A stretch of 64,000 nt of DNA from Nannochloropsis salina CCMP1776 (Eukaryota; Sar; Eustigmatophyceae; Eustigmatales; Monodopsidaceae): the NCBI GenBank assembly GCA_004565275.1, contig SDOX01000005.1, forward strand, positions 1,400,765 to 1,464,764. Direction: 5' to 3'. Position numbers and translations under genes: made by a program. How positions within the stretch are numbered: position 1 is the stretch's first letter; every line of letters starts with the position of its first letter. Shown piece after piece: positions 19,965-31,604 of the stretch. The notes under the pieces are model-generated. The model had not been told where the DNA came from. It saw nothing but the letters and a program-made list of their open reading frames with translations, and did no database searches.

Positions 19965-21285
19965 CCCTATACGTTTTGTTTATGGAATGTTATGGAATTG
20001 TAAACTTGCCGTCAACATGTGGCCTTAATAAGAGACGAATGGTAAGTGGAACCGTCCCTGCATTGGATTCGGTACATGTGACATGCCAGCAACCCAGCCC
20101 CTGGAAAGAAAAAAACGATACACATGCAGGCAGCCGGGCTCGGAGTGCACGATATGCGTAGATATGTAATGCTCATGGCTCACTGTGAAGCATCAATAAT
20201 TTTAAACCCACATGCAACTATATCACATCAAGTCGACGACGAAATGAAGAAAAGGTCAAACGCTGCTGCTTCAGGATCTGCGCTTTTACGTAAAAAGGCA
20301 TCTTAAAAATAATGTGATACGGTTTAAACACTCATGCTCCAAGACTTCACGATACCAGGTGCAAATTGGGCGAAGGGACGGGATACTTTTGTCAAGAAGG
20401 TTGTATTTCTAGGGGAGTCTTCGCAAAGCACTGGACGCGTCTCCATCATGGAGGCGGCACACCAGATACTTTCACTTCCCTTATTTTGTGAGTACCCTCA
20501 TGCCAATCACCGGTCGTGAACAGAACATATATATATATGCTTTTCGCACCACGGACCCTTTTCGCCACCAGGAAGTAACCAGCCACAGCATTTGTGGCAG
20601 CATCATGTTGAAGTTTACAAGGAATACGCCCCAGACGCTCAGGCTCTTAAAAAAATGTCGATCCAGGTCTGCGGATGCACAAATTGCTCTGGAACCCCCT
20701 TATCCAATGCGGTGACATTAGAGTTTGTCTCTTAACTCCAAATTAAGAATGCATTGAGTGTACAAGCGTCTAAATCGACCACATCAAATGCGATTGAATC
20801 CCATCCGACGGCCATACCCACGGAAAAGACCTCTAGAGCAAAGGCATAAGCGGAATATCAGTTACAATTGATGCAATAGAAATTGCCCATATCCTTTTTC
20901 CATTCAATTCATAGACAGGCGACAGTGACGGCATCCACACTTCAGGTATGGTATAAGGTTTGTGTTATGATTTTTGCAAAGATGCAGAGCATGACCTGAC
21001 CTGTTGGAAATATTTTTTGAGGGCCAAGAGGGAAGCAGACAGTGAAAGGAAAGCAAATTGTACGTAGCTAAAATTAAATAAAAAGCGAGCGCTCGCGTTG
21101 AGACTATATGCATAAAAATGCCGATCATTTGGCGTATGAGCTCACGTGTCAATACGGGGAAAAGAAATCAGATTTACATCTCAGAGCACTCGCGCACTTA
21201 GTATTTTATTCATATACAATTGTGCAATGATGTGAAAACGCATGTTGGGCAAGGGACATGTCTTCTTGAGATCATTCCCCCGGGA
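19965..21285. other. AT-rich spacer, nothing recognised
   Basis: About 1.3 kb between two minus-strand genes. It holds the promoter of the chitobiase gene on its left side and the 3' end of the methyltransferase gene on its right. Open frames are short and not protein-like. Confidence 0.5.
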
Positions 21286-22495
21286 TCACGTTGGCTTTTC
21301 GTTATCTTCCTCCAGAACGACCCGTACCAGTACCAACCCCTCCGGCGCCGTCACTGCCAGCGCCCTACCCTCGCAGCCATCTTGCCTCCATTGCTTCTGC
21401 TCCCCGTCCCTCCCACTGCTACAACACTTCTTCGCGTCTGTGCAAACAAAACTTTCATCCCCATCGCTGTCACTGCGGCGTGAGCTCTTACCGTCCATGC
21501 TGTCGCCAGAACAACTGTCCTCCACTACTCGCAATCGTTGCCAAGCATCCTGAACTTCTTCCCTGCTCCACCTTTTGACAAGTTCCCACCTCATTCCTTT
21601 GCGTGCTTCTACTAAACTCAGGAATTTGTGCCCCGCGCATGATTGTTCGTGTGGGCACACGGAAGGATAGGAAGACCCGCTCACACAGGCGTCGATGGTA
21701 AGAAAGGCGACAGCAGAGGACCTGGGGATGTGTGAAAGCGAAGAAGAGGTTAAGATTGTCTATGTTACTACGGCCTTTGCGTCAATGGAGAAGGATCGTG
21801 GGGGAGAGATTCAAAGAAAGAAGACTGGTGGAATGAACCATCACTCAGACTGACCTGGTGGACGCTGACTTTAGCTTCGGAGATATTGAGAGCAGGGTGT
21901 GAACTGTATCCAGAAGTGCAAGTTGTGTCTGCAGCATTGGGGTCACCTCACAGCCAATGAGGCATAATTCATTCGCAGATCGACAGGCATCAACAAGGGC
22001 AGGAGCTAAGTTTGACGGACAGCAGCCCCAGGAAAGCTCCAATGCTTGAGCAGAGAAGTTAGTGGGGCAGGTCGCTCGTGCAGCCGTGTTCATAAAACGA
22101 TCAGAAAGGTTCAATGGAAGACTTGTGTGGAGGGTAGCGGGGATTGAGGCCCTAAAATGGGCGAGATTGACCTCACATAAGGCGTGTGTCTCGTCGGTGA
22201 GGAAACAATCTACGTACTTTCTGCCGCATTTTAATGCAGTGGCCAAGGCAACTAAACCGCATAATCCCGCGCCTGCCCCGAGCTCAATGATAGTCAAGGT
22301 TGTGTGTGGCTTCATTGGGCGAACTGATGGACCGAAATTAAGAAAGCTGCAGAGATACTCGCTTACGACGAAAGCAGCTGGCCAGACCTCCCCCCCAAGC
22401 AAAACCATGGACGCATCCTCGTATACCCAAACAACATCGTCCACAGATCTTATCTCATGATCAGTAAGGCGATATCCCACACGTTGACGAGGCAT
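21286..22495 (-). CDS. METTL21/FAM86-type SAM-dependent methyltransferase
   Basis: Exons 22495-21855 and 21721-21286 with a 133-base GT-AG intron (phase 2); 358 residues. The N-terminal half has VWVYEDASMVLLGGEVWPAA (the W-P-A approach segment of the lysine methyltransferase-16 family), motif I IIELGAGAGLCGLVALA, and ALELSWGCCPSN, matching the post-motif that usually reads L-x-W. The family methylates lysines on translation factors, chaperones or other proteins; the substrate here is not readable. The second exon contributes FLTIDACVSGSSYPSV and a charged tail (KRWSREEVQDAWQRL) that is not recognised. There is no targeting signal, so it is probably cytosolic. Confidence 0.72.
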
Positions 22496-22893
22496 AATGT
22501 GCCTGTGTGCAAGATAGAATCGTCATTTTTAAAATGTTGGAACAAACTTCGGGCTGGCAATGACGGTTGACAAAAGTAACGGTCTATGATACGCGACGCA
22601 TGTTCCTGGGAAAACTGTTCTTTCCCAGATGTCAACAAACTGGCTGGCTCCAGGGACACAGTTGTTCATCACAATGAGGCCTAATGATGAAAGTCTTCTG
22701 ATACATTATTAAGTTTCGTGTTCTCATGCCTGGAGGGAGCATATGTATCCAAGACGCGTGGGATGTTTTGCCCGGCCATTGAACCTCCTGTACTCATGTG
22801 GTCCCAATTTCATCGGAAGCACTGCGTTCGTCTCGCGCAAACATGATAGGGACTAAAAAATATCTAGTCTCACGGCTTTTATTCTTCCAAAAC
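22496..22893. promoter_or_regulatory. divergent promoter region
   Basis: About 400 bases between the methyltransferase gene (-) and the erythromycin-esterase-like gene (+). The plus frame is open from 22798, but its ATG at 22843 gives a less convincing leader than the one at 22894. Confidence 0.4.
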
Positions 22894-24879
22894 ATGAAAA
22901 CTGTCAAAATCGCTACCTTACCCGTGCTTGGTCTTGTAGCATCTGCAGCTACCCGCGCAGCCGCCGCCTTTGGCACCCCTTTTCTTGCGTCGAACAACAA
23001 TCGCGTTGCGCATCCTGCTGGCTTAAATCATCATCTATCCCCTTTGAAAACCTTTGTCTCTATTTTTGAACAAGTCTCAGATACACAGAATACCATGGAA
23101 TATGCCAAAGCAATGACCGAGACATTGGAGCAGCACAAGCTTCCTCTTCGCAGTGATCGGGACCTGGATCCTTTGTTGGAGTCCATCGGGGACAAGCGAT
23201 TTGTCTTCCTGGGAGAATCTACGCACGGAACACATGAATTTTATACATGGCGAGCACAAATCACGAAGCGGCTTATTGAAGAAAAAGGATTTAACTTTGT
23301 CGGCGTCGAGGGGGACTGGCCTGATTGCTACGTAAGTTTTTGGCAAAGTCGATCATCAAATTCTTCCGGAACTTTTCACTTTTTTGACATATCTGAAATT
23401 AATGAGGCATCCTCATATTCTACAGGAACTCAACCGTTACATAAAAGGATTCAAGGACTCAGCCAAGCATCCTTCTGGTAAGGTTCTTTAGGTCCAGAAC
23501 TTTTTTGGTATTTCGCCTGCGAAATAAGATATGATTTACCCCAGCCATAAATACCTCACACATTCAACAATAAGATGTGATGAAGGCCTATTTTAAGCGT
23601 TGGCCAGTTTGGATGTGGGGTAATTGGTAAGTGCGTGGGGATACACACGAGAGTCGATCGGACCTGTAAGTATTTTTTATGGGATATAACATTCGGGTCT
23701 GATGCATCGTTTCTTTGTTTCAGGACTTAGATTGCTCTCACAAGATTTGTGTGCCTACCCATACCTTAGGGAGGTTGCCGCTTTGACTGGTTGGATGCGT
23801 GAATTCAACATGAAACGTCCTGCACAAGAGCGCGTCGGCTTTTACGGTCTGGATGTGTATTCCCTGATGGAGTCCTTGGAAGCAATTGTCAAGTTCATGC
23901 GCAGTGTAGATGGGGATGAGTCAATTAAAAGTGCCGAGCGAGCTTTGGCCTGTTTTGAACGCGTGGCCACGATGGGGAAGGAAGACGTAGGCCAGGCGTA
24001 CGGGATGGCAGCTGCTCTTACCCCTTACTCATGTCGGAATGAGGTTGTGAAGTTGCTCGTAAAGGTGCGAGAAGAAGCCGCCAAATTGTCGGAAAGCCCG
24101 AATGACGAGGAAGCCAATGAAAATGCTTTGAGCGCAGAATTGAATACTAAGGTGCGTTTTATAACCAGTCGGGAGAAGAGTTCAAGGCAAGGCCGAAGAA
24201 AAACTCTTTTCGACCTATTCGGTTCCTTACTCATTTTATTCTTTCACTTGCATCGTCAAAGGTGGTATTGGATGGGGAGAAGTACTACCGGATCATGGTA
24301 GACGGAAGCGACGACTCGTGGAATGCCCGGGACACGCACATGCACGAGACCCTCCGACGACTTTCTCATTTTTACGGTCCCAAGAGCAAGGCGATTATTT
24401 GGGCGCACAACACCCACAATGGGGATGCACGGGCCACGGACATGGCGATGGGGGGGATGCACAACATTGGACAGTTGGCTCGGGAGACTTGGGGCAAGGA
24501 GCAAGTGCATCTGGTGGGCTTGGGCACATATCAGGGAAGCGTCATGGCGGGAAAGCGGTGGGGTGCGGATATGGAAGTTATGCCCCTGCCCCATGGCGTC
24601 CCTGGGTCTTGGGAACACATTTGTCACACAGCTGGCAAAGGTCAAGATATGCTGGTGGTTCCTGAGGTGCTACGGCAGCCTTTGTTCGAAAAACGCGTGG
24701 GACATCGTGCCGTAGGGGTCGTCTACAATCCATCGCGGGACCGAATGCAGTACGTGCCTTCAGTGATGAAAGCACGCTACGACGCTTTTGTTTTCCTCGA
24801 CACCACCCGGGCATTGCATTCGCTCAAACTTCAAGCAGATCCTACCGAAGTCCCGGAGACTTACCCGTGGGGGGTGTAA
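22894..24879 (+). CDS. erythromycin-esterase-family protein with plastid presequence
   Basis: Five exons: 22894-23331, 23426-23477, 23575-23626, 23770-24151, 24262-24879. All junctions are GT-AG and the phases close to 513 residues. The chosen start gives [19 protein letters not shown]…AAAAFGTPF, a signal peptide followed by Ala-Phe, the stramenopile plastid signal. The mature part has the Ere hallmarks: [16 protein letters not shown] (Glu, His, Arg of the active site), [11 protein letters not shown], a [17 protein letters not shown] block spanning exons 3-4, [18 protein letters not shown], and [17 protein letters not shown] with the second conserved His. In bacteria the family opens macrolide lactones or acts on other esters; many members have no known substrate. 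In an alga a macrolide role is unlikely, and a plastid ester or lipid substrate is only a guess. The bacterial affinity suggests old transfer, but four introns show it is fully domesticated. Confidence 0.85.
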
Positions 24880-26634
24880 TCGACCTTCCAGACTCAGGCC
24901 TGCACCTTGAGCGCACTGGATGCGTGATAAAGTACGCATGCAGTAGGAGATTGGATAGGAATTTGAAAAAAAACTCAGATCCAGGCAGAGAATTTTCGCG
25001 CATTGCAGCGCCAAATGCGGTGAAGATGCTTTTGTAGAGGAAAAAGACTCTCAAAGCTAAGCATAAGCAATGGGTGCGACGGGCGAGGAAAGCCGTACAG
25101 TCAAAACGATGATGCGTGATAATTCATTAACGCGATATCTTTTTGTGAAGAGGGCTCCGATGAGAATGTAAAAGGGAGAAGTTTATCTCACACACGTGCA
25201 GACCGCAAGATGGAAAAGAGAAAAGATGAAGACAAACAAAAGAAAAAGTTCAGATTTGCAATATTGCTGAAAAATGATGGCTAAAAAATGTCACACAGGA
25301 AGATTTACTTTATCTATTGATACATTGAGCAAGCACACACGTAATGTCTTTTTCCAGAACTGGGATTGAAGATATGGCTTGAAAGCCTCTTTGCATGCTT
25401 TTTCCAAGAAAATATCAAAATCGAAAGGTGCACTGTTTTGACTTGACCCATAGAGCGTATATTTCTTAACTTTCATGGCCCATGGCGTTGCCCTGGTCAG
25501 GTCGGAAGGGCGGAAGAGGTACAAAATGTTAAGGCGATGCCCGCCTTCCCAGCAGCAAGAAATACCTGAAGTTTTTTTTTGCGACGAGAACATGATCGCG
25601 GCTCAAATTCATAGAAAGGTGGCCTTTTTATTATTTTGGACGGAGGTTTGAGCGGAAAGAAGAACGAAGCCGAAGTAGTTCGGTAAAAGCGCTGGACATT
25701 GCAGCTCTTTTTGAGGGTGAGGAGGTTAGCTAAGCGGCGACTCGTAAGTTAGAGGAGCAGCAGGCGCAGCTTCGGGCAGACACCAGGAAATTGACCTCCG
25801 ATTGCTCCATGCATTACGAGTTAACCAGGCACTACAGGCACATGTGCGTAAATTATGCATCATTTCCCCTTTATCTTGCTCCTGACATTGTGGTGGGACC
25901 GTGAAAATTCATTCGACATAGTCCTTGGTCTTGGGGTCAGCTCGTTGAGTAAAAGATACTTTCTGAGAGCTTTCGATGACCTTGAATACGAAGGATCAGG
26001 GTCGAAAAGCATTTTCGTGTGCAACACTCTCGCTCGAGGGCCTTACACGGTCGGGTGACTATTGGCTGGGCCACATGAGAAACATTGATATCAAGTTATT
26101 GTTCCCAAAAAAAGTTTTACCCGTTTTATGGGCTGAAAACTTTTTAAGCACTCGGGAGGCACAGGACCCACCAGATCATTTTCACTTCAATTCTACTACT
26201 TCAGTGAGAGCCGAAGTTGGCCTCGGATGCTTATTTAGACGGGCGCTTTGTGAAATTTTAAAGACGTATCGAACAGAAGTCATGTCTTACTTATTGGAGA
26301 GAGGAGAACTACAGCATTTTTTGGGCATCTGTTGTTACATGAACGGGCAGTTGCAGTTGTCTATACAGGGTACCCTTCCATGAGGTTTCCTTCTTTATTC
26401 TTCTCGGTGTAATCGTCCCGTGTGAGATGTATTTTGCGGCAAGCTGCATGGAAGGATCAAATGTGCAATGTGAAGCACTGTCACTCGGTCAAAGTCGAGG
26501 ACTGGTGCGGGTATGGTGCCACCCAAGGTCTCCTGGCCTCTCCCTCGCTATCTTTCTGGAGCGTTTATCCGAACTTTCTCCTTGCGTTGTCCTCCACCTC
26601 ATCAAACTAGGTGTAAAAGCAAAAACTTCAGAAA
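24880..26634. other. AT-rich spacer, no supported gene
   Basis: About 1.75 kb between two plus-strand genes. Two open frames of about 100-135 residues (25291-25593 minus, 25976-26383 plus) have no recognisable motif and are more likely chance. The promoter of the POR gene is expected in the right part. Confidence 0.45.
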
Positions 26635-28317
26635 ATGGCTCCATTGAAGAAGTATATGCAGCCTGCAGTGGTGCTGGCTGCAGCCACGGCCAGCATGACG
26701 TCGGCCTTCCTGCTCCCCGCCATGCGCCCTGTCCCTGCCCCCACGACCGTCACCTCCGCAGCAAGGACGTCGCCGCTCTTCTCCCGCTCTTCCACGCCCT
26801 CTGTCGCGCCTGCCAGGCCCACCAAAGGCACGATTCTGTCGGCCACCAATTTTTTTGAATCATTTTTCGCGCCCAAATCCGCTCCCGGGGCCGGTGCCCG
26901 TGGGGGAAAGAGAACCATCGTCCTCACTGGCACGTCTTCGGGCCTGGGCAAGGCGACGCTCAAAGCGCTCTGTGCCCGCGGTGACAATTTCGTGATTTGC
27001 GGAGTCAGGGACATGGAGAAAATGCAGGCCGTGGCGGAGGAACTGGGCTTGGACCCGTCTTCCTACACGATCCGTCCCTTAGACCTCTCATCCTTCGCCT
27101 CGGTGAGGCGCTTCGCCAAGGAAGTGAAGGCGGTGAAGGGCGGTAAGCCTTTGGATGCCCTGGTTTGTAACGCGGCCGTGTACCTGCCTGCCCGTGACTA
27201 CCCGACATTCACCCCGGATGGGATCGAAGAGTCCCTCCAAATCAATCACCTCTCCCACTTCCTCCTGGTTTCGCTCCTGCTCGACGACTTGAAGAAGGCC
27301 AAGGACCCCCGCTGTGTGATCGTGGGCTCCATCACCGGGAACGACAACACCATCGCCGGGGCCTTTGTCTGGCCGCGGGCCTCCTTGGGGGACTTGAAAG
27401 GGATGCAGGAGGGGGCGAAGGAGCCTGTCTCGATGATCGACGGCAAGGATTTTAACGGGGCGAAAGCCTACAAGGACAGCAAGGTAACTACCACAAACGG
27501 GTTGGGAAAATACCATTTAGACATCGAACGTGGGATGGAGCCATGTCCAAGACCTGGACTTGACGCTGGACATGGGGGTAGAGGGTGAGGGGGGCGGAGA
27601 GTGCTCCTTGGCGCGACGGGGAGGAAGCGGCGGCCGGGCACAGGAAATGGGATTTCGAGGATTTCCCACTGAACCTCCCTGTGCCTGGCCTCGCGATGTG
27701 ATGAGTGTGGAAGGGTCAAGAACGTCGCCCGGTCTCAGCCAAGCCGCTACGATGCCAGACCTTCTTCTTCTCCACCCCTTCCCACCGCGATCCCTCGCAC
27801 CCATCTCTCTCTCTCCCCCCCTCTACCCTCCCCTCCCTTCCCTCTCCCTCAGATGTGCAACATGATGACCGTGAACGAGCTTCACAAGCGGTACCATGAC
27901 GCCACGGGCATCACCTTCTCCTCCATGTACCCCGGGTGCATCGCTGAAACGGCCTTGTTTCGGGAAAAGCGACAGTGGTTTCGGACGCTCTTCCCCCTCT
28001 TCATGAAGTACGTCACGGGGGGCTACGTCTCCGAAAACGAAGCCGGCGAGCGCCTGGCCCAAACCGTGTGGGACCCGGCGTTGAAGACCAGCGGGCAGTA
28101 CTGGTGCTGGAACGGTCAGGCCCAACAGTTTGGCTACTACGACCCTGCCACCAAACAAGTCCGAGGGGCGGGCGGGAGCGGCGGGACCGTGTTCCCTGGG
28201 AAGTTGGCAGGGCAAGTGATGGATCAGACCAAGGCAGAAAAAATGTGGGAGTTGAGCTCGGAGATTACGGGGGCGACATGGCCGAGCGTAGGGGTCCGGG
28301 AATTGGCGAACGTGTGA
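26635..28317 (+). CDS. por: light-dependent protochlorophyllide oxidoreductase
   Basis: Exons 26635-27483 and 27853-28317 (phase 0); 437 residues. The presequence MAPLKKYMQPAVVLAAATASMTSAFLLPAM is a signal peptide plus Ser-Ala-Phe plastid signal. The mature enzyme is a short-chain dehydrogenase: IVLTGTSSGLGKATLKAL (NADPH Rossmann loop), LVCNAAVY, INHLSHFLL, and the catalytic Tyr and Lys in YKDSK, which falls exactly at the exon 1 end and continues as MCNMM in exon 2. Cysteines typical of POR are present (ALCARGDNF, PGCIAETALF). POR uses light and NADPH to reduce protochlorophyllide to chlorophyllide in the plastid. The intron ends in a long CCCTCC-type pyrimidine tract before CAG. Confidence 0.95.
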
Positions 28318-29457: not shown

Positions 29458-31604
29458 CTACACACTCAAGTACTCGTACTTCTTGGAGATGCCTACATCT
29501 GGGCACACGTCATAGAGCCGTTCACTCAGCCTCTTCTTCATTTTTTCGCACGGGATCTGGTTGTATACCTGAGCAGCGAAGCCCATCATCAACACCTGGC
29601 GTGCCTCTCGGCGTGAGATGCCTCTGGACTGAAGGTAGAAAGCTTCGTTCTCGTCGATATCCGCCACCGTGGCCCCATGCGTGCAGTCCACATCCCCCGA
29701 ACACACCTCCAAGGTGGGCATGGCGTCCACGGTGCAGGAGTCCGTGAGCATGATGGAGCGAATCAGCTGGTCCGCCGTCACCCCCCGGGCCCGCGGCTCC
29801 AATTTCATACGTCCCTTGAACACGCAGTGGCTGTCCCCACTCACAATGTTGCACTGGTACATGTTGCTCTCCCCGCCTTTCCGGCGATGGTGTATGTAGG
29901 AGTGGATGTCGAGTTCTTGTTCCTCCCCTGTGATGGTCACCCCCTCCGTGTCCACCCGTCCCTCCGTCCCGTTCAAGGTCGCTTGGAAATTGACCCGCCC
30001 CAACTCCCCCCCCACGTTCACAAACACGTTCTTGTAGGCGCTCAGTTTCTTGGTCGTGACAGAGACCGCGTCGAACATGAGGCCCCTCGGGCCCAGCTCG
30101 TTGGCGTGCAAGTGCTGCACTTCCGCCCGTCGGTCCACACGCACCGTGGTGCAGGCATTCGCCAAGGCTGTTCCTGAGCCTAGGTCGATGTAGGACTGGA
30201 CAAATTTTCCCGCCGAGCGTTTTCGCGCCACCACCGCCAAGCGCGGGTGGGAAACTCGCACGTCTTTCTCCCCCTCCGCCCCGCCCTCCCCTTGGCTGGA
30301 GGTGGAGACGAAGATAAATTGCACGGGCGCCGACATCTCTCCCCGTTCGTCCACCACCAGGCAGGCCGCGTCTTTCACACAGGCCTGGTTCAAGCACGAA
30401 AAGGGCAAGGAACCGGACGCCAACGTGTGCCGGAGCCCCACCTCTGGCGCCCACTCGATCTCCCGGAGCAACTCCTCCTGCTCCTCCTTCGAGAACTCAA
30501 ATATGCTGCCCGCTCTCCACCCCTCCTTCGGCCCTTCCTCCTTCAACCTCGCCACTTGGGACAGCTCGGGTCGGTGGACGCCGTCCACGAAGACCACGAC
30601 CCGCCCTTCGCACACCTCCAAGGTGTGTTCCTCGATCTTCGCCTTCAATGCGGTCACCTGGGCCGGCTGTAGGACCGCGGGAGGCTTCGATGGCCGTCGC
30701 CCATACAGACGGCTTAGATCCGTGAACCGCCATGCCTCTTCTCGCCGGGTCGGTGCCCGCGTTTCACCTGCCAGAAAGCGCTCCACCCCTTCCTCCGTGG
30801 CCCGCCCGAAGGCAGGGTGGGGGTCGCGGTCTGCCAAAACAGCGTTGAACCAGTCCTTAGCTTGTTCTTCGCGCGATGGTGGCTTGAGCGCGACGGTTTC
30901 CGCTTCAATTTCTTTGCTTGACTCCTCGAAAGATGTGGACCGGGGACGGTCGGCGAGGGCGGCCGCGAGACGGGTGTTCTGATGTGATGAGGACGGTAAG
31001 GGAGTGCGCGGCGGAGGAGATGAGAGACGTCATCATGCAAGTCTTCAAAACGAGTGACACAGCCGTACGAGGCCTGGATATGTGTCCATAGGGACGATTA
31101 AACCCAATAAAGTGTCGCATGAATGCATTGTGCTGAATGTAAGGAGGACACGAGGAGGTAGAGACATGACAAAGCAAGAACCCTAACCCAAAGCAGTGAG
31201 CACTCCACACACATCAACGAGCCTACATTTGCGATAGACTGGGACGCACTCTAGACCAGGAGTGCAAGAACACAAGGTTCAAGCTCATCATGCATGCTAG
31301 CTTGATAAACCCTAACCTCACTTTCTCGTGAAGCTTTTTAGCCAGCCAACCAAATCAATACGTGCACTACACCTTTCCTCTTCTCCTGTACGTTCTTCCT
31401 TACCCTTATGCTATGCTTTTGTTGTTGCTGATGATGCATTATATTGCTTGCTTTTTGTACTCCAATTCCCCCTTGCGCGGAAGGGTTGAAGGGGGCTAGA
31501 AAGGCTTGTGCGACTCCCACTGCTGCTGCTGCAGTTGCCGCCATTATGAAGCCCGTACTGGCCCCGCGTCGCCGCAACCCCGTGTATTGCTGCCTCGGAG
31601 TCAT
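29458..31604 (-). CDS. sufD: plastid Fe-S assembly protein SufD
   Basis: Exons 31604-31404 and 30978-29458 (phase 0); about 573 residues. Exon 1 ends …HSIR and encodes ATAAAAVGVAQAFLAPF, a signal peptide with the Ala-Phe plastid motif. A start at the inner ATG (31544) is equally possible. Exon 2 opens with NTRLAAALADRP and holds the SufD core: EAWRFTDLSRL near the start, the beta-helix stretch VQHLHANELGPRG-like segment (written here EVQHLHANELG), DIHSYIHHRRKGGESNMYQCNI, and the end block SGDVDCTHGATVADIDENEAFYLQSRGI. SufD joins SufB and SufC in the SufBC2D scaffold that builds Fe-S clusters for photosystem I, ferredoxin and others. In many red-lineage plastids sufB and sufC stay in the plastid genome while sufD is nuclear, which fits this gene. 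The intron contains two short CCCTAA telomere-like motifs. Confidence 0.92.

Follow-up and report, generated by a model that had tools for sequence, protein, structure and literature searches.

A five-exon gene of the erythromycin esterase family

The window analysed here is a 64,000-nucleotide stretch of the genome of the alga Nannochloropsis salina CCMP1776 (contig SDOX01000005.1, positions 1,400,765 to 1,464,764, forward strand). Its spliced sequence at positions 22894-24879 (+) can be read as a gene of five exons, running from ATG to TAA and encoding a 513-residue protein of the erythromycin esterase family that appears to be addressed to the plastid. Exon 1 (22894-23331) carries the start of the hydrolase domain and, before it, a presequence in which residues 1-25 resemble a signal peptide and residues 26 to about 58 a transit peptide. 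Exons 2 (23426-23477), 3 (23575-23626) and 4 (23770-24151) follow, and exon 5 (24262-24879) carries SWNARDTHM and the TAA stop. All four introns on this strand are of the GT-AG type, namely intron 1 (23332-23425, 94 nt, phase 0), intron 2 (23478-23574, 97 nt, phase 1), intron 3 (23627-23769, 143 nt, phase 2) and intron 4 (24152-24261, 110 nt, phase 0), and none has a length divisible by three. Among the splice combinations compared for introns 2 and 3, three preserved the frame and the motifs, and the one adopted here has the GTAAGG donor.

A BLASTP alignment with one Bacteroidota protein spans all four exon junctions with 226 of 445 columns identical and a one-residue gap immediately past junction 2. 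The five-exon structure and the coordinates proposed in a first-pass annotation are upheld. The predicted start codon at 22894 is not fully certain, because another ATG in the same frame precedes it by 17 codons (22843-22893 (+) would encode the longer N-terminus) and a further methionine lies at residue 68.

The protein matches the Erythro_esteras profile (PF05139) over its full length (positions 1-358 of 358) with 349.2 bits against a gathering score of 26.4 (E 5.2e-104). Searching the 26.5-Mb genome, that of a photosynthetic organism, for the family returned two matches, both of them exons of this gene, so that a single locus was found. The family's active-site motifs, which the first-pass annotation had described as kept, lie at residues 107-116 (GExxHG) and 356-365. 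An excerpt of PMC4580454 gives the PF05139 active-site residues as E43, T45, H46, G143, D145, residue 261, H290, N291 and H293. Their algal equivalents, matched by motif and not by alignment to the sequence of that paper, are present as E108, T110, H111, G207, D209, H357, N358 and H360; we took R331 as the equivalent of residue 261, whose letter PMC4580454 does not print. The position of T110 is occupied by Ser in 71 of 78 homologues.

The protein scores 11.8, 40.7 and 17.2 bits with the NCBIfam models for EreA, EreB and EreD, whose curated cut-offs are 750, 750 and 800 bits. Membership in a resistance-type Ere family was rejected on these scores, and by its sequence the algal protein is not a resistance-type Ere.

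The gene lies on a contig of 1.56 Mb and is flanked on both sides by eukaryotic genes. When 20 long open reading frames (ORFs) of the window were scanned against Pfam, 11 had a match at E <= 0.001 (two of the 11 under the family cut-off); the matches include IF-2B, SacI, G-patch/OCRE, a lysine methyltransferase, a UAA transporter and SAS-6, all eukaryotic in kind. Rfam and tRNA scans of the 64-kb window returned no matches. Local GC content is 47-48.5% at 20001-26000, while 2-kb steps elsewhere in the first 38 kb have 51-63%. GC content at third codon positions is 0.56 in the esterase-family gene, 0.50 in the neighbouring methyltransferase and 0.62-0.77 in seven other ORFs.

The presequence

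The algal protein has 106 residues before the GExxHG motif, whereas 78 homologues (77 Bacteroidota and one Myxococcales by record title, with ORF starts as read) have a median of 48 (range 31-94). Compared with its bacterial relatives, it is extended at the N-terminus by about 58 residues. The first-pass annotation had seen there a signal peptide followed by the plastid signal AAAAFGTPF, and a hydrophobic stretch at about residues 6-19 and AAAAFGTPF at residues 22-30 were found. The signal-peptide-like segment (22894-22968 (+)) comprises 25 residues, with cleavage expected before Phe26 (AAAA/FGTP, where the slash marks the presumed cut). The transit-peptide-like segment that follows (22969-23067 (+)) has 33 residues and not one Asp or Glu. 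Acidic residues first appear at position 59, and Asp and Glu make up 14.2% of the mature part. Red-lineage transit peptides are expected to have few acidic residues, many hydroxylated ones and a net positive charge; the 43 residues past the cleavage site hold two D/E, two K/R and eight S/T and carry no net charge.

As a yardstick we used the light-harvesting complex (LHC) proteins of the same genome. From 34 PF00504 matches, which are exon pieces, we fetched 30 loci and obtained 16 distinct presequences, among them MRVIALLSLASMASA/FIAP and MKTAVLFLSGLVGAQA/FLTP. Several of the 30 loci represent a gene already included or cover inner exons, and yielded no presequence. We left out of the profile L093, which an intron seems to interrupt, the near-copy L106 and implausible pattern matches in L084 and L092 (L numbers are our locus labels). 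All nine LHC presequences that were read in frame upstream of the PF00504 match have Phe after the presumed cut. The algal presequence has a profile score of 9.5, within the leave-one-out range of the LHC set (1.5-23.8), a comparison confined to LHC presequences, and its hydropathy of 2.45 also falls within the LHC range (1.9-3.12). The window contains 571 stretches that start with ATG and stay open for at least 50 codons, and nine of them reach a score of 9.5 together with a hydrophobic segment. Requiring Phe after the cut as well leaves three distinct places, namely the gene at 22894, 26635/26656 (+) and 31544 (-).

Two further window genes thus appear to begin with similar presequences. One is a short-chain dehydrogenase (SDR, PF00106) gene at 26617-27585 (+) with a plastid-type start, MQPAVVLAAATASMTSA/FLLP, at 26635/26656; the other is a SufB/D-type Fe-S assembly gene at 29461-31544 (-), with a presumed first exon, MAATAAAAVGVAQA/FLAP, at 31544.

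By our own profile and hydropathy values, AAAA/FGTP resembles an ASAFAP-type site (a signal peptide with Phe at +1), and Phe at +1 is described as crucial to plastid import in an excerpt of PMC4329603. A red-lineage plastid address of the protein is well supported as a prediction from sequence. A formal predictor could miss this presequence, since HECTAR recognised 44% of curated plastid proteins of Nannochloropsis oceanica, with zero plastid false positives (PMC3499364, in excerpt).

Bacterial relatives and the origin of the gene

Six exact peptide patterns, run against 84,980 prokaryote genomes, gave 378 stretches and 369 relatives. The best 80 of the 369 comprise 79 Bacteroidota and one Myxococcales metagenome-assembled genome by record title (phylum assigned from the genus where the title names that alone), with best-segment identities of 44-51%. 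The nearest relatives among these 80 are Bacteroidota proteins, up to 51% identical. A protein search found matches in 30 of 198 Bacteroidota genomes, many of them weak, and in 19 of 188 Myxococcota genomes, other phyla being sampled through plasmids. All 202 matching plasmid records fall below 60% identity; the top of the 40 listed is from the haloarchaeon Halomarina, at 47.8%. Viral relatives were not found in one scan with exact short patterns, a weak test with two pattern matches in viral contigs, neither of which encodes a relative.

For phylogeny we had 122 loci with a homologue of at least 350 aligned residues, plus the alga. The best-match list (L003-L082) was thinned for both trees to its first 20 and then every third, with L034 kept. 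The duplicates L127, L156 and L177 and the distant L139, L140, L142 and L143 are absent from both the quick tree (78 rows) and the careful tree (72 rows), and L169, L170, L171, L172, L175 and L176 from the careful tree only. In the careful tree the alga, the sole eukaryotic row, falls within a clade of 50 rows (support 99/95) with 45 Bacteroidota, three Myxococcota and Halomarina. Its branch is long (0.92), and its closest neighbour lacks good support. Because the two trees place it beside different neighbours (L129 in the quick tree, SH-aLRT 92; L051 in the careful tree, 90/30) and a clade of the 45 Bacteroidota rows that excludes the alga was not rejected (approximately unbiased (AU) test, p 0.33), the analysis narrows the putative donor to the 50-row clade, with the alga placed either inside or beside the Bacteroidota. 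The Halomarina homologue (L119, 3001-4215) is the first branch in the same clade and is perhaps another cross-domain transfer.

The long branch within a supported bacterial clade, together with the eukaryotic neighbour genes, indicates an old bacterial transfer; as read here, this is now a native nuclear gene and not contamination. A grouping with recent contaminants, which the first-pass annotation had named as refuting its proposal, was not seen. Bacterial contamination or misassembly would account for a protein that is bacterial in kind, and was rejected on the introns, the 1.56-Mb contig and the eukaryotic flanks; with a best identity of about 51% and so long a branch it is hardly credible.

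In the bacteria, a phosphoribosyltransferase (PRTase) or a dienelactone hydrolase (DLH) gene lies within 3 kb in 44 of the 79 nearest loci, and some relatives adjoin HSP20, BON or ferritin-like genes. This PRTase/DLH setting, unlike a resistance setting, suggests that a non-resistance role probably came with the gene from the donor and did not first arise in the plastid. The first-pass annotation had proposed a recruitment of the fold to plastid chemistry in place of macrolide resistance: the protein is indeed no resistance-type Ere by sequence, and the recruitment is a conjecture.

Proposed role and comparison with known systems

The reading we favour, with moderate confidence, is that of a soluble ester or lactone hydrolase from a Bacteroidota-rich clade, anciently transferred and now plastid-directed in an alga with a red-lineage secondary plastid. 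The gene would have been acquired long ago from a bacterium of this clade of non-resistance 'erythromycin esterase family' hydrolases and would have gained its introns and bipartite presequence, both visible in the sequence, after the transfer. The presequence would carry the protein through the endoplasmic reticulum (ER), where the signal peptide would be cut before Phe26, and the remainder would then act as a transit peptide for import to the plastid stroma. There the protein would most likely be a soluble hydrolase in which His111 and Glu108 together activate a water molecule for attack on an ester or lactone bond, and Arg331, His357 and His360 may line the pocket (roles transferred by motif from EreB/EreC and by conservation). 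With PRTase and DLH-like genes next to many bacterial relatives, HSP20, BON or ferritin-like genes next to some, and PCMT fused to more distant ones, the role might most plausibly be the breakdown or repair of a stress-produced ester or lactone metabolite.

Several observations weigh against this reading. Thirty-five of the 79 bacterial loci have neither a PRTase nor a DLH gene inside 3 kb, so a stress context is not general, and housekeeping neighbours, identified by eye and not by a scan, occur in up to 16 loci (genes for enolase, citrate synthase and ribosomal proteins). The PCMT fusions fall in another clade than the alga. Searches of the alga with one query protein each for PRTase and DLH found neither; these are weak tests that show little because they had no positive control. 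For the presequence, the score of 9.5 exceeds just four of the 16 LHC leave-one-out scores, the signal segment has 25 residues compared with 15-20 in the LHC set, and the yardstick was made of LHC presequences alone, with no secretory control from this genome. A pattern requiring Phe picked seven of the 16, which are therefore no test of Phe at +1. The upstream ATG and Met68 permit other N-termini, and the AU result allows the alga to be placed beside as well as inside the Bacteroidota.

The long signal segment and the missing secretory control would also suit a presequence that is a signal peptide only, with the enzyme secreted or held in the ER or periplastidial space and acting on extracellular or envelope esters. 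Phe at +1, which matters for plastid import according to the excerpted PMC4329603, Pro at +4 and the acid-free stretch of 33 residues behind them argue otherwise, and we regard this alternative as unlikely. A functional start at Met68, or variable transcripts, would yield a cytosolic enzyme like the bacterial proteins and reduce the upstream codons to a chance-open 5' untranslated region. Bacterial proteins usually start at a point matching about algal residue 59, not far from Met68; the upstream codons are nonetheless open, hydrophobic and acid-free and bear AxA/FxxP, and the other two of the three window places that combine score and Phe lie at or upstream of recognisable genes, which makes such a start quite improbable.

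Plastid ribosomes are bacterial in type and are macrolide targets, and an enzyme sharing the catalytic motifs and probably the fold family of EreC might shield them by hydrolysing environmental macrolides. The excerpt of PMC4580454 interprets the Chrysochromulina tobin homologue as a resistance-type erythromycin esterase. Set against this are scores far under the EreA, EreB and EreD cut-offs, nearest solved structures that are Bacillus cereus proteins and not EreC, and PRTase/DLH neighbourhoods unlike an expected resistance cassette, so that we consider macrolide protection improbable. At the far end, a dedicated plastid enzyme derived from the Bacteroidota hydrolase would act on a plastid-specific ester or lactone, with acylated xanthophylls such as vaucheriaxanthin esters, which are characteristic of eustigmatophytes, or an oxidised plastid lipid lactone as bold candidate substrates. 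We give this reading very little weight; if true, the non-resistance part of the family would gain its first known physiological substrate.

We know of no physiological substrate for proteins annotated 'erythromycin esterase', an annotation common on proteins without demonstrated resistance function. A plastid-addressed member that is the sole family locus found in a small algal genome offers a clean knockout target in which to seek an accumulating metabolite. Our favoured reading also advises caution in taking algal family members for antibiotic resistance, as was done in print for Chrysochromulina (PMC4580454, in excerpt).

The closest counterparts are Bacteroidota 'erythromycin esterase family' proteins (for example L004, L027 and L051), which share the motifs with the alga at no more than 51% identity over about 445 residues; L004 also shares its C-terminus, PETYPxGV. 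Unlike the algal gene, they have a shorter N-terminus, are intronless and often lie near PRTase and DLH genes. By structural comparison the closest solved structures are BcR135/BcR136 of Bacillus cereus (PDB 3b55/2rad, 2qgm; 19-22% identity to the homologue compared) rather than EreC; entries further down the list, ChaN and HopBA1 among them, served for a remark on the fold alone. To our knowledge, no function has been established for BcR135/BcR136. From the macrolide esterases the algal protein differs in lying far under the EreA/EreB cut-offs; with EreC it shares the catalytic motifs and probably the fold family.

Two plasmids, from Sinorhizobium (L113, 3227-5200) and Azospirillum (L122, 2200-4212), encode PCMT-Erythro_esteras fusions annotated as methyltransferase alone. 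These have the same full-length Pfam domain, with an isoaspartate methyltransferase N-terminal to it where the alga has its presequence.

The first-pass annotation had presented the gene as a eukaryotic, organelle-directed member of a mostly bacterial family. The introns and the red-lineage plastid-type presequence bear this out; as eukaryotic algal holders of the family, Aureococcus anophagefferens (PMC10756674, there credited to Gobler 2011), C. tobin (Ctob_004084, 523 aa; PMC4580454) and Fugacium kawagutii (PMC11453091) had already been reported, and were compared here by published description, in excerpt, only. Titles and abstract openings of the papers listed from the open-licence literature, a set with subscription papers mostly outside it, yielded no description of a eustigmatophyte or plastid-directed member. 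The catalytic His of the C. tobin protein is described as residue 56, compared with His111 here, so that a plastid presequence would have less space there. The family is thus already known from algae, and the notable trait of the N. salina protein is its plastid-type presequence.
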